A DNA stretch of 64,000 nt, from contig NZ_JAFBBO010000001.1 of NCBI RefSeq assembly GCF_016907235.1, positions 1,116,001 through 1,180,000 of the forward strand. Direction: 5' to 3'. The DNA comes from Oerskovia jenensis. Its GTDB lineage: Bacteria; Actinomycetota; Actinomycetes; Actinomycetales; Cellulomonadaceae. Positions within the stretch are counted from its first letter, which is position 1. Each line of letters begins with the position of its first letter. The notes beneath the pieces were generated by a model. That model had not been told where the DNA came from. It did not search any database and saw nothing but the letters and a program-made list of their open reading frames with translations. This document shows positions 33,894-38,436 of the stretch, piece by piece. Made by a program: the position numbers and the translations under genes.

Positions 33894-34988
33894 ATGGACG
33901 ACGCCCCCCTCTTCCCCGTGCGCCTCCGCCCGAGGACCGTCGTGCTCCGTCGAGGACCCGGAGTGCTCCAGTACGGCACCGACGAGCGCTGGAGCGTGCA
34001 CCTGAGCGGTCTCGCCGACCACGAGGTCGCCTGGCTCCTCGACCACCACCGCTCGGGGCGGGCCCTCCTGCACGCGCCGCCTGCCCGGTTCGCCGTCACG
34101 CCCGTGCGACAACTGGAGATCGTGCGCCACCTCCACGAGGCGCTCCTCGTCGTCGGGCCGCCGGACGCAGAATCACCTCACGTCGTCGCGCCCGCCCACG
34201 GCGGAGCGGACGCTCCGACGCTGTCCCTCCTGCGGCCCGACGGGAGCGGACGGACGACCCTCGCCCACCGCGCCCGCGCGAGCGTCGGTGTCGAAGGGCT
34301 CGGGAGGCTGGGCCTGGGGATCGCGGTCGTGCTCGCCACCGCGGGCGTGGGCACGCTCCTGCTCGACGACGCCGCGCCGGTCCAGGCGACGGACGTCGGG
34401 CTCGGCGGCTACCGGTCACGGGACGTCGGGCGGGCGCGAGGAGAAGCAGCCGCGAGGATCCTGACGGACCTCGCCCCCGACGTGCGTGGCCACCTCGTCG
34501 AGGCCGCGCGATGGGTGTCGCCGCACGAGGGACGGCCCGACGTCGTCGTGGTCGTCGAGCACCGGGTGCTGCGCCCCGAGCGGTACGGACAGCTCACGGG
34601 CGACGGGACCGCGCACCTACCGGTCGTGGTGCGGGAAGCGGATGTGGTGGTCGGACCGTTCGTCCGGCCGGGAAGGACGCCGTGCGTCCGGTGCGTCGAG
34701 GGGCATCGCGCCGACCTCGACCCGCAGTGGCCGCAGCTCGCGGACCAGCTACGAGACCCTCAGCGGGAGGTCCTCGACGTCGAGGAGACCACGCTGGCAG
34801 CCGTCGGCGCGGCGATCGCCGCGAGCCAGGTGCTCGCGCACCTCGACGGGCTGACACCCCGCGCAGCCACGGCCTGCATCGAGATCGCTGTTCCCGATGC
34901 CGTGCCGAGGCTGCGCGAGGTGGTGAGCCACCCGCGATGCGGGTGCTCGGACCTGAGAGTCGCGGCGACCATGTCAGGCCGCCGATGA
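33894..34988 (+). CDS. ThiF/E1-like NAD(P)-binding protein (TOMM cyclodehydratase-like)
   Basis: The 364-residue protein resembles the ThiF-like part of azoline-forming (TOMM) cyclodehydratases. An N-terminal wHTH/leader-binding-like region (residues 1-110) is followed by a Rossmann-like core (GRLGLGIAVVLATAGVGTLLLDD), ADVVVGPFVRPGRTPCVRCVEGHRADLDPQWP with a paired-Cys motif, and a final pair of Cys in HPRCGCSDLR. No ATP-grasp or YcaO partner and no precursor peptide are adjacent. A lone version next to whiB7 appears in several actinobacteria as far as I recall, and its function is unknown. GAGGAGC precedes the ATG. It overlaps the whiB7 3' end by 15 bases. Confidence 0.82.
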   Translation: MDDAPLFPVRLRPRTVVLRRGPGVLQYGTDERWSVHLSGLADHEVAWLLDHHRSGRALLHAPPARFAVTPVRQLEIVRHLHEALLVVGPPDAESPHVVAPAHGGADAPTLSLLRPDGSGRTTLAHRARASVGVEGLGRLGLGIAVVLATAGVGTLLLDDAAPVQATDVGLGGYRSRDVGRARGEAAARILTDLAPDVRGHLVEAARWVSPHEGRPDVVVVVEHRVLRPERYGQLTGDGTAHLPVVVREADVVVGPFVRPGRTPCVRCVEGHRADLDPQWPQLADQLRDPQREVLDVEETTLAAVGAAIAASQVLAHLDGLTPRAATACIEIAVPDAVPRLREVVSHPRCGCSDLRVAATMSGRR

Positions 34989-35408
34989 CGCGGAGACGGA
35001 GTCCTGCGACTCGAGAGCGGCGGCACGCGCCGCCTCCTCCGCCTGGCGGGCGAGGACCTCGGCCTTGCTCGGCCGCCCACGCCCACGCTTGCGGGCGACG
35101 ACGGCTCCGTCGACGAAGACCTCGCCGCCCCAGACGCCCCAGGGCTCCTGGCGCTCGATCGCACCCGCCAGGCAACCGGCGACGAGCGGGCAGGCCTGGC
35201 ACAGCGCCTTGGCCTGCTCGACCTGCGTCGACTGCTCGGCGAACCAGAGCTCGGGGTCGTTCGTGCGGCAGGGCAGCAGACCGGCGAGGAGCCGGTCGAA
35301 CTCGGCCGCGTCCGAGGAACCGAGAGGGGTGGTGAGGGGTTGGTGGGGTGTCCAGGGGCCGGATCCGCCCTGGGCAGTGATGTTGTCGAGCAGCGCGGTG
35401 AGCCGCAC
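34974..35408 (-). CDS. whiB7: WhiB7-like iron-sulfur transcriptional regulator
   Basis: WhiB7 proteins bind sigma-70 region 4 and activate intrinsic antibiotic resistance genes. The 144-residue protein has the four cluster cysteines C47, C70, C73 and C79, the G(V/I)WGGE turn (GVWGGE, 91-96) and the AT-hook KRGRGRPSK (residues 107-115), which distinguishes WhiB7 from other WhiB proteins. The GTG at 35408 follows TGGAGGA. It sits downstream of uvrD2, the same position as in mycobacteria. Upstream lies a leader ORF and a terminator hairpin (35533-35563). The Ala-rich C-terminus after the AT-hook is longer than usual. Confidence 0.93.
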   Translation of the reverse strand: MRLTALLDNITAQGGSGPWTPHQPLTTPLGSSDAAEFDRLLAGLLPCRTNDPELWFAEQSTQVEQAKALCQACPLVAGCLAGAIERQEPWGVWGGEVFVDGAVVARKRGRGRPSKAEVLARQAEEAARAAALESQDSVSASSAA

Positions 35409-35532
35409 GATGTCCTCCAGTGATGTCCTGATCTGCGTGTGAACTTCTTTGTCACAGGACCCGCAGGTGGTCGTGGCGTCCGGGGATGGTGGACGGCTGA
35501 CCGGGAAGACGATCGCATTCGGAGAAACACGA

Positions 35533-35563
35533 AGGCCGCGGGTCCAGGTGGACTCCGCGGCCT
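35533..35563 (-). terminator. Attenuator hairpin in the whiB7 leader
   Basis: On the minus strand AGGCCGCGG(A)GTCC pairs with GGACCCGCGGCCT around a 4-base loop, with one bulged base, and is followed by the T-rich run TTCGTGTTTCT. It lies between the leader ORF stop (35583) and the whiB7 GTG (35408), so it would stop transcription before whiB7 unless antagonised. Confidence 0.8.
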
Positions 35564-35582
35564 GAGAAGGGTGCGTCGGTGA

Positions 35583-35708
35583 CTAGACCGGCGACGTCCT
35601 CAGTGCGGAGTCGGGAACGGGGCGGATGACGAGGGATCCGCCGCGCCGTGCGCGGTTGATCGGATCGGCCGACACATGTGTCGGGCTCGCCGTCAGGATC
35701 TGCTTCAC
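35583..35708 (-). CDS. 41-codon leader ORF of whiB7
   Basis: A GTG at 35708, preceded by GGGAGGTGG at a five-base distance, opens a 41-residue ORF beginning VKQILTASPTHVSADPINRA and ending SALRTSPV. Its stop is 19 bases before the attenuator hairpin. Uninterrupted translation would let the terminator form, while ribosome stalling inside the ORF could alter folding. whiB7 genes of mycobacteria and Streptomyces are known to be controlled by upstream ORFs with transcriptional attenuation, so the role is likely; this exact peptide is not one I recognise. A perfect 16-bp palindrome (35669-35684) lies within the ORF and could form a competing RNA hairpin. Confidence 0.75.
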   Translation of the reverse strand: MKQILTASPTHVSADPINRARRGGSLVIRPVPDSALRTSPV

Positions 35709-35776
35709 CAAGCCCACCTCCCATCTCCGTCGAACGCCCGCCTCTCGGCGCGCGTCTCTCCTACAAGGACTCCTGA

Positions 35777-35813
35777 ACCATATGCCGCCCTCGGAAGGAC
35801 GCACAACTTATTT
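35777..35813 (-). promoter_or_regulatory. Predicted whiB7 promoter
   Basis: On the minus strand a -35-like TTGTGC (35801-35806) and a -10-like TATGGT (35777-35782) are separated by 18 bases. Directly upstream of the -35 is the AT-rich AAATAAG (35807-35813). WhiB7 activates promoters with an AT-rich block just upstream of the -35, contacted by its AT-hook, so autoregulation is expected. The leader ORF starts about 70 bases downstream. Confidence 0.6.
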
Positions 35814-35872: not shown

Positions 35873-37894
35873 TCAGCCCGCGGAACGCGCCACGATGTCC
35901 AGCAGCGTCGCACCGTACTTCTCGATCTTGGCCGGCCCGATCCCGTTGATCCTCGCCAGGTCCGGCACCGAGGCGGGCCGGGTCTCGGCGATCGCCGCGA
36001 GCGTGCCGTCGACCAGGATCGTGAACGCCGGCTTGTCCGTCTCGTGCGCGACCGACATCCGCCACTCGCGGAGCTGCTCGAACAGCGCCTGGTCGTACTC
36101 GCCCGTGAGGTGGACCTTGTTCTGGTTCGCGCGGCTACGACGCGGGGAGCGCGACTGCTCGTCGTCGGGCCACAGGCCGTCGAGGAAGCGCGTCCGACGA
36201 CGCGACGCACGCCCACCAGGGTTGCGGGAGCGCCCGAACGACACCTGCAGGTGCTCACGCGCACGCGTGATGCCCACGTACAGCAGGCGACGCTCCTCGG
36301 CGACCGCCTCGTCGGTCTCCGCGAGCGAGATGGGCATGAGGCCCTCGCTCATGCCCGCGAGGAAGACCGCATCCCACTCCAGGCCCTTGGCGGCGTGCAA
36401 CGACGCGAGCGTGACCCCCTCGACCGTGGGCGCGTGCTGGGCCGAGGCGCGCTCGTCGAGCTCCGCGACGAACGAGACCACCGTGGGCGGTGCACCGTCC
36501 GGCGCGACGCGCGCGACGTCGTCGGCCAGGGCGACCAGGGCTTGCATGGACTCCCACCGTTCACGCGCCGCACCACGCGCCGACGGGGGCTCGTTCGCCC
36601 AGCCCGCCGTGATCAGGACGTCCCGGACCGTCTCCGGCATGGGGACCTGCGGGTCCGCGGACCGCGCCGCGCCGCGCAGCAGCACGATCGCGTCACGGAC
36701 CTCCTTGCGCTGGAAGAAACGCTCGCCCCCTCGGACGAGATAGGCGATGCCCGCGTCCGCGAGCGCCTGCTCGAAACCCTCCGACTGGGCGTTGGTGCGG
36801 TACAGGATCGCGATCTCGCTCGCTCGCGTCCCGGCAGCCAGGAGGCGACCGATCTGCGCGGCGATGCCCTTGGCCTCGGCCTCGTCGTCGTCGTACGCGA
36901 CGTACGCCACGGGTGGGCCGGACGGCCGCTGGGCGACGAGCTCGAGCGCCTGGTGCGCTCCCCCGCGACGCCCCGCTCGTGCCAGGAGCTGGTTCGCGAG
37001 CGTCACGACCTGGGGCGTGGACCGGTAGTCGCGGACGAGCCTGACGACCTGGGCGCCCGGGTACTTGGTGGGGAACGTGAGCAGGTGGTGGGGCGTGGCG
37101 CCCGTGAAGGAGTAGATCGTCTGCGACGGGTCGCCGACCACGCACAGCTCCTTGCGCCCGCCCAGCCACTGGTCGAGCACGAACTGCTGGAGCGGCGACA
37201 CGTCCTGGTACTCGTCGACCACGAAGTGGCGGTACTGGCGGCGCACCTCGTCGGCCATGGCTCCCTGCGAGGCCAGCATGTCGCCGAGCATGAGCAGGAC
37301 GTCCTCGAAGTCGATGACCGACCGCTCGGTCTTGACCTCCTCGTAGGAGGCGATGAGCCGCGCGACGGTCTGGTGGTCGTAGCCCGCGGGCGCCGGCCGG
37401 TCGATCGCCGCGCACGCCTTCACGTAGTCGTCGGCCGTGACGAGCGAGACCTTGGACCACTCGACCTCCGAGGACAGGTCGCGGACCGCGATCCGGTCCA
37501 CGCCGAGCCCGAGCCTGCGCGCCGCCTCCCCGACCACCGACGCCTTGTACTCGAGGATGCGCGGCGGGGCGCCACCCACGACCTTGGGCCAGAAGTAGCT
37601 GAGCTGTCGCAGCGCCGCCGCGTGGAAGGTCCGCGCCTGGACGCCCGTCGCGCCCAGCTCGCGCAGTCGCGTGCGCATCTCGCCCGCGGCACGGGCCGTG
37701 AACGTCACGGCCAGGACGCTCGTCGGCGTGTAGGCGCCCGTGCGCACCCCGTACGCGATCCGGTGCGTGATGGCGCGCGTCTTGCCCGTGCCCGCGCCCG
37801 CGAGCACGCAGACGGGACCGTGCAGCGCGAGGGCGACATCACGCTGGTCGGGGTCGAGGGCTTCGAGGATCTGGTCCGCTGACTCGTTCGGCAT
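35873..37894 (-). CDS. uvrD2: ATP-dependent DNA helicase UvrD2 (SF1A, HRDC-containing)
   Basis: The 673-residue helicase has all SF1 motifs: Walker A GAGTGKT (33-39), VTFTARAAGEMRTR (Ia), VDEYQDVSPLQQ (II), VGDPSQTIYSFTGA (III), VRDYRSTPQVV (IV), TLASLHAAKGLEWDAVFL (V) and RLLYVGITRAREHLQVS (VI), and a C-terminal HRDC domain (about 595-673, ending ARINGIGPAKIEKYGATLLDIV). HRDC is characteristic of UvrD2. In mycobacteria UvrD2 is essential and acts in DNA unwinding and repair. The ATG at 37894 is used. It is upstream of whiB7 in the conserved order. Confidence 0.95.
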   Translation of the reverse strand: MPNESADQILEALDPDQRDVALALHGPVCVLAGAGTGKTRAITHRIAYGVRTGAYTPTSVLAVTFTARAAGEMRTRLRELGATGVQARTFHAAALRQLSYFWPKVVGGAPPRILEYKASVVGEAARRLGLGVDRIAVRDLSSEVEWSKVSLVTADDYVKACAAIDRPAPAGYDHQTVARLIASYEEVKTERSVIDFEDVLLMLGDMLASQGAMADEVRRQYRHFVVDEYQDVSPLQQFVLDQWLGGRKELCVVGDPSQTIYSFTGATPHHLLTFPTKYPGAQVVRLVRDYRSTPQVVTLANQLLARAGRRGGAHQALELVAQRPSGPPVAYVAYDDDEAEAKGIAAQIGRLLAAGTRASEIAILYRTNAQSEGFEQALADAGIAYLVRGGERFFQRKEVRDAIVLLRGAARSADPQVPMPETVRDVLITAGWANEPPSARGAARERWESMQALVALADDVARVAPDGAPPTVVSFVAELDERASAQHAPTVEGVTLASLHAAKGLEWDAVFLAGMSEGLMPISLAETDEAVAEERRLLYVGITRAREHLQVSFGRSRNPGGRASRRRTRFLDGLWPDDEQSRSPRRSRANQNKVHLTGEYDQALFEQLREWRMSVAHETDKPAFTILVDGTLAAIAETRPASVPDLARINGIGPAKIEKYGATLLDIVARSAG

Positions 37895-38169
37895 CACGTC
37901 GATTCTCTCAGCCACCGCCGACAACGGGTGCCATTCTCCACAGGGTCGGATGCTCCTCTCGGGGCGGCGGGCGTGGCCGAGCCTGCTCGCGGGCGGTGTC
38001 CCGCCCAGGGGCGGACGACGCCAGGATCCCTGTCCGGCACCTGGCGTCACGCACCGGGAACAACCCGACCCGTGCGGACGTTCCCCACGACGACACCTCC
38101 CGGGTCTCGCACCCCGGGCCGGTCGTCGGCCCGCGCTCTCCGCCGGGTCCCGCGAACGAAGGAGCACCG

Positions 38170-38436
38170 ATGGCCACGGCCCCGACCACCCCCGACGCCG
38201 GATCGATCGTCATGTACTCGACGACCTGGTGCGGCTACTGCCGTCGCCTGAAGACCCAGCTCGACTCCGCGGGCATCGGGTACACCGAGGTGAACATCGA
38301 GGAGCACCCCGAGAGCGCGGCGTACGTCGAGCAGGTCAACGGGGGCAACCAGACGGTCCCGACCGTGGTCTTCCCGGACGGCACCGCGGCGACCAACCCG
38401 TCGCTCGCCCAGGTCAAGGAGCGCCTCGCGGTCTGA
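38170..38436 (+). CDS. Mycoredoxin-like glutaredoxin
   Basis: The 88-residue protein has the mycoredoxin/glutaredoxin fold: VMYSTTWCGYCRRLKTQL with the C21-GY-C24 redox pair, VNIEEHPESAAYVEQVNGG and the cis-Pro loop QTVPTVVFPDGT. Mycoredoxins reduce mycothiol mixed disulfides, replacing glutaredoxin in actinobacteria. AAGGAGC precedes the ATG. It is divergent from uvrD2, as Mrx1 is in mycobacteria, and followed by a terminator hairpin. Confidence 0.93.
   Translation: MATAPTTPDAGSIVMYSTTWCGYCRRLKTQLDSAGIGYTEVNIEEHPESAAYVEQVNGGNQTVPTVVFPDGTAATNPSLAQVKERLAV

Follow-up and report, generated by a model that had tools for sequence, protein, structure and literature searches.

The window analysed here, a stretch of 64,000 nucleotides from Oerskovia jenensis (contig NZ_JAFBBO010000001.1, positions 1,116,001 to 1,180,000), carries on its minus strand a whiB7 gene with a leader that contains, in 5' to 3' order, an AT-rich box, a promoter, a Shine-Dalgarno (SD) site, an upstream open reading frame (uORF), a linker, a hairpin and a moderately T-rich tail. 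These features and the alternative pairing discussed below are as follows, with the basis of each call in brackets:

35807 to 35813, minus strand: AT-rich box AAATAAG, directly 5' of the -35 hexamer (sequence; kept in relatives' leaders)
35777 to 35806, minus strand: promoter TTGTGC, 18-nt spacer, TATGGT (conservation)
35717 to 35722, minus strand: SD site GGGAGG of the uORF (sequence; strong SD sites 5' of relatives' uORFs)
35583 to 35708, minus strand: uORF of 41 codons from GTG 35708 (42 if TTG 35711), stop TAG at 35585-35583 (uORF test)
35605 to 35612, minus strand: antiterminator 5' side GACTCCGC, within codons for P-D-S-A (comparison and folding)
35597 to 35603, minus strand: CTGAGGA, 5' side of a second antiterminator helix (minimum-energy fold, window only)
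35562 to 35568, minus strand: TTCTCAG, 3' side of the second antiterminator helix (minimum-energy fold, window only)
35551 to 35558, minus strand: GCGGAGTC in the terminator 5' arm, common to terminator and antiterminator (comparison and folding)
35533 to 35563, minus strand: terminator hairpin AGGCCGCGGAGTCCACCTGGACCCGCGGCCT (folding; core hairpin in relatives, see below)
35521 to 35532, minus strand: moderately T-rich tail TCGTGTTTCTCC (sequence and fold)
34974 to 35408, minus strand: whiB7, a WhiB domain followed by an AT-hook-like stretch (profile hits)

The gene starts at GTG 35408, with GGAGG at 35418-35414. Its product scores 57.8 bits against PF02467, above the cut-off of 23.6, and 17.2 bits against the AT_hook profile PF02178, slightly below the cut-off of 17.4, and the motifs G-V-W-G-G and R-G-R-G-R-P were read in it by eye. 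Judged by these sequence features, the gene is of the WhiB7 type, combining a WhiB domain with an AT-hook. No NCBIfam family matched the product at E ≤ 0.1; the best named match is from Oerskovia douganii (95% identity), and the genome holds seven WhiB-family genes. Rfam covariance models run over the whole window at the gathering score returned two tRNAs only and no match to the leader. Inspection by eye suggests a UvrD-type helicase for the neighbour at 35873-38167 (minus strand) and a mycoredoxin/glutaredoxin-like protein for the one at 37996-38436 (plus strand); mycobacteria have a comparable uvrD-whiB7 neighbourhood.

An AT-rich block and promoter-like hexamers had been pointed out ahead of whiB7 by the initial annotation, and both are indeed present on the minus strand and conserved in relatives. 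The -35 hexamer TTGTGC occupies 35806-35801 and TATGGT 35782-35777; the two hexamers and their spacing are identical in 11 of the 15 leaders displayed, among them those of every one of the seven genomes in the window's genus. Passages of PMC7157823 place the published WblC site, GAAAWY, 3 nt 5' of the -35 hexamer; TCAAAT in the window agrees with it at only four of six bases, and the surrounding AT-rich block is conserved. The AT-rich box is probably a site of WhiB7 autoactivation. Generic scans listed no promoter at all and missed the hairpin at 35563-35533; the promoter and terminator calls rest on conservation.

The GTG frame with a strong ribosome-binding site described earlier (35708-35583, encoding the 41-residue peptide VKQILTASPTHVSADPINRARRGGSLVIRPVPDSALRTSPV) is real, as is its SD site, but its length may need correction to 42 codons, since ATG stands at the position of TTG 35711 in two of the seven congeners. 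A linker of 19 nt separates the uORF stop from the hairpin, which folds at -26.4 kcal/mol; the 71-nt segment that includes it has a z-score of -4.44, none of 200 shuffles being equally stable. An intrinsic terminator is thus predicted between the uORF and whiB7, and the hairpin already described there proved stable and conserved, whereas the tail TCGTGTTTC, described as a T-rich run, is only moderately rich in T. The end of the uORF commonly reads CCGGTCTRR (codons P-V-stop), at 35591-35583 in the window and in many relatives, and its GGTCT might base-pair with the AGGCC found at the base of the terminator.

Conservation of the leader among relatives

The family set comprised the primary whiB7 leader from the 116 genomes with a match, out of 121 searched, and a strict uORF was defined by one fixed rule (at least 28 codons, a strong SD site and a stop 0-60 nt 5' of the hairpin). 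The core hairpin was found in 106 of these 116 leaders, window included, and 91 of the 106 also had a strict uORF; leaders resampled by a first-order Markov model, a null that differs from exact dinucleotide shuffling, give 6.3. Both the frame and the hairpin are thus conserved. In a class-wide set from outside the family, made of 60 stretches that we picked among the listed matches (which came from 246 of the 296 genomes), 57 leaders had the core hairpin and 54 a strict uORF; in a named set that partly overlaps the family, the counts were 73 and 61 of 79. The Mycobacterium loci in the set carry hairpins of the same core type. The uORFs were picked automatically and several picks were wrong (e.g., L055, L059, L073, L119 and L123); these five were left out of the peptide-identity and GACTCC-table analyses and kept in the pairing permutation and box-scoring sets.

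Among the 15 family leaders with a core hairpin and no strict uORF, 12 have a uORF with a weaker SD site in looser lists, and L067, L086 and L108 have none by the strict or the looser listing. Ten family leaders lack the core hairpin. For four of them (L111, L112, L116 and L117), the hairpins listed include a related one. In L087, L095, L102, L103, L104 and L109, no hairpin of any kind was recognised among those listed, the listing covering the range L092-L110 in part; four of these six still have an ORF of about 48-52 codons behind an SD site. The attenuator may have been lost or have diverged in these six. Second whiB7-like copies, of which 15 were listed, showed no strict uORF in any of the 14 scored (L124-L137); a loose hairpin rule scored seven of the 14, and the hairpins displayed are unrelated GC-rich ones. 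These copies come mostly from one genus (g7) and lack the GGCCGCGG-type hairpin. Judging from their upstream regions, they possibly lie outside attenuation control.

Alternative pairing and the position of the ribosome

Near the end of the uORF, GACTCCGC (35612-35605) is exactly complementary to GCGGAGTC (35558-35551) in the terminator 5' arm, and in the window the CTGAGGA:TTCTCAG helix is predicted by folding to lengthen this pairing. Across 103 non-redundant leaders, drawn from 153 having both uORF and hairpin, uORF ends paired better with their own terminator arm than with foreign ones (-18.07 versus -16.69, sd 0.17; none of 5000 permutations); in 82 of the 103, the value for the own arm did not exceed the foreign-arm median. 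With 57 class-set leaders added and 39 arm types compared, the values were -11.66 versus -9.29 (sd 0.28; none of 20,000 permutations), these permutations ignoring the tree and several arm types being single or truncated. A control using the preceding stretch of the uORF leaned slightly to the own arm (-9.13 versus -8.71, p 0.05). The matching is strong but falls short of a strict code: the own arm had a median rank of 6 among the 39 and was in the top three for 14 arm types.

The same correspondence can be read in individual motifs. GACTCC stands at the uORF end in 43 of 56 family leaders with a GGAGTC arm and in one of nine with another arm; in the other sets, the counts are 5/5 and 0/85. Other natural pair types are GACTCCAC:GTGGAGTC, GGGTTCCG:CGGAACCC, GTTCGC:GCGAAC and GTCCGTG:CACGGAC. 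By these comparisons, with permutations drawn without the tree, the uORF end and the terminator arm change together across lineages, and the leader has, according to comparison and folding, an antiterminator that overlaps both uORF and terminator. A mutually exclusive hairpin, which the initial annotation had proposed to look for, was thus found, with coordinated change on its two sides. Folding of the window also indicates that the SD region of the uORF can pair strongly with the same bases, as a candidate anti-antiterminator; in relatives, own pairs had no clear advantage over swapped ones (better than the median swap in 39/70 leaders of the family and 46/90 from outside it; controls 40/70 and 47/89), a test with little power because all SD sites are alike.

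Nascent RNA was folded with a ribosome of assumed footprint placed at sampled odd codons. Before the 3' arm of the terminator is made, a ribosome at any sampled codon from 1 to 27 leaves all eight antiterminator pairs in the predicted fold, one at codon 29 leaves four and one at codon 31 or beyond none; 5.8 of the eight pairs still form when no ribosome is present. With the 3' arm present, folding favours the terminator wherever the ribosome stalls (about 12.5 pairs versus 0-0.2). The terminator wins everywhere at equilibrium, and the switch must therefore be kinetic.

We consider the leader to be a ribosome-dependent transcription attenuator of whiB7, with a probability of about 0.88. This reading, already advanced in the initial annotation, is well supported by the conserved promoter, uORF and hairpin and by the coevolving alternative pairing, all of which come from comparison or folding. 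The promoter, probably activated by WhiB7, would yield the leader RNA, with the uORF translated behind the RNA polymerase. By covering 35612-35605, a ribosome that reaches the uORF end would allow the hairpin at 35563-35533 to form and to end transcription. Stalling at the start, or at any point as far as about codon 27, would leave 35612-35605 free to pair with the terminator 5' arm while the 3' arm is still to be synthesised; the terminator would be delayed and whiB7 transcribed. We infer the timing of these steps and the role of the ribosome in Oerskovia, and papers on other actinobacteria suggest by analogy that translation inhibitors or starvation would induce the gene.

The earlier proposal that the peptide itself is the sensor was not supported. 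A leader peptide acting as arrest peptide or drug sensor, which would stall the ribosome through the exit tunnel, could draw on a uORF that looks translated and on a peptide that is nearly invariant in the window's genus. The whole leader is, however, nearly invariant among these seven genomes, and the question of peptide versus RNA cannot be read from Oerskovia alone. Across the family, peptides without their last 14 residues have a median identity of 26% versus 22% when shuffled, and the last 14 residues 21% versus 14% (600 sampled pairs among 65 leaders, five mis-picked ones having been dropped from 70). The peptides are thus slightly more alike than shuffled ones, but outside the last 14 residues they are near random identity, their length ranges from 29 to 134 codons, and the last 14 contain the pairing element, for which each of the three codon frames is used (in 82, 35 and 33 leaders out of 160, with 10 weak; at least three of the 33 are an indexing artefact). 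An arrest peptide is accordingly improbable in our judgement. Since the arm pairing coevolves and the element falls in all three frames, the position of the ribosome looks like a better-supported sensor than the peptide sequence, and what is required of the uORF seems to be a track for the ribosome rather than its product. A motif LAPT...QGTxVS was considered in the uORFs as a pure peptide motif and rejected, as the same bases were found in another codon frame.

The variability of the family peptides also bears on an amino-acid-specific attenuator, in which shortage of one amino acid would halt the ribosome where codons for it form a run: they are too variable to hold one regulatory codon set, and the 41-residue peptide of the window has no run of one amino acid. 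We find this reading very improbable, even though the architecture is that of leader-peptide attenuators and passages of PMC11550727 report induction of whiB7/wblC by starvation. Control exerted mainly on translation or through Rho, by hiding the whiB7 SD site or exposing a Rho site, would have precedent, translation being the controlled step in many known antibiotic-sensing leaders; the conserved intrinsic-terminator hairpin between uORF and gene, with a 5' arm that coevolves with the uORF end, leaves it hardly any weight. Finally, a random ORF next to an unrelated hairpin could be expected in GC-rich DNA, where long chance ORFs are common, and the T-tract is weak; chance is nevertheless close to dismissed by the excess of uORFs over the Markov expectation, the conserved promoter and the coevolving pairing.

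The proposed ribosome-dependent attenuator gives a base-level model of whiB7 control for an Oerskovia-type bacterium, and the whiB7 attenuator is a main control of actinobacterial intrinsic resistance to ribosome-targeting drugs. Selection appears to keep the uORF:terminator pairing in any codon frame, and a stop codon shortly 5' of the hairpin, rather than the peptide. Such a pattern would explain how one switch answers many unrelated translation inhibitors.

A pause-like box in the uORFs of relatives

A box, CAGGGGAnnnCTSTGYCC, was noticed by eye on the sense strand in the 103 leaders and scored afterwards, so that only a held-out set and the strand and background rates serve as tests. It lies inside the uORFs of L072 and 42 other leaders, about 100 nt past the uORF start, and occurs in two codon frames. 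In the 54 held-out leaders (57 minus three near-duplicates), 12 reached at least 10 of 11 matches, whereas 200 shuffles of synonymous codons gave a mean of 2.2 and a maximum of 6; lowering the threshold to 9 weakened the excess (29 versus 16.9, maximum 25). The box is strand-specific: hits numbered 31 sense and 0 antisense in the training uORFs (18.9 kb) and 13 sense and 0 antisense in the class set (13.7 kb), the window background being 0.04 per kb. The window's own uORF scores under 8/11, and the box was for this reason left out of the main claim.

The fuller form of the RNA polymerase pause consensus adds G-11 and T-3. The spacing of the box fits the consensus G-10, Y-1, G+1 given in passages of PMC12288461. 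A simple pause motif is disfavoured in the genus of M. tuberculosis, because the part of PMC10937400 covered found pause sites without a strong consensus there, and the passages covered of the literature on whiB7 pausing name no such site in the whiB7 leader. The 40 nt 5' of the box fold no better than shuffles, giving no sign of a pause hairpin. Tests for pairing of the box with the uORF end, with the linker and terminator or with the SD region showed no signal: of 43 leaders, 21, 23 and 21, respectively, did better than the median swap. GGG is over-represented among the glycine codons of the box (25/30 versus 165/958), but this was discarded as circular, since the box score itself asks for those G. 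Tentatively, and with more doubt than confidence, the box might be a pause signal at which the polymerase, having gone about 100 nt into the uORF, waits for a ribosome to load; together with the frame-independent antiterminator, it would make the whiB7 leader of many actinomycetes, although not that of the window, a peptide-blind sensor of coupling. If so, the leader would report whether a ribosome keeps up with the polymerase, and not what is translated.

Comparison with known systems

Control of actinobacterial whiB7/wblC by a uORF, a terminator and an antiterminator is already published, and the leader in the window is assigned to this kind. In the parts covered, the mechanism is described for whiB7/wblC (PMC10727445) and for wblC with amino-acid starvation in addition (PMC11550727), whiB7 attenuation is described in M. 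bovis and M. marinum (PMC4128351), and linezolid is reported to cause a loss of elongation from which whiB7 is exempt (PMC10937400). Beyond these papers, the literature on whiB7 antiterminators that was covered consists of reviews and papers on other topics; our results on coevolution and frame-independence, and the pairing itself, may already be contained in the primary Streptomyces paper (Lee et al., 2022).

As in whiB7/wblC of Mycobacterium and Streptomyces, according to the passages covered, the window has an SD-led uORF followed by an intrinsic terminator before the gene, an antiterminator overlapping uORF and terminator, and an AT-rich box at the -35 (PMC10727445; PMC11550727; PMC4128351; PMC7157823), whereas its uORF peptide and exact pairing bases differ. 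In ilvB1 of Mycobacterium tuberculosis, the position of the ribosome similarly selects terminator or antiterminator, as described in part of PMC13236596, but ilvB1 has regulatory LVVI codons and the peptide of the window is without such a run. The ABC-F leaders vmlR, tiaA and are5sc also combine a short uORF with a terminator and an antiterminator that answer ribosome-targeting drugs (passages of PMC12421871), a response that would apply here by analogy. The tiaAL and are5scL1 uORFs are very short (MVGDDDISG and MLV) and stall at the start codon (PMC12421871, in the same passages), whereas the uORF of the window has about 41 codons and a broad predicted stall range.
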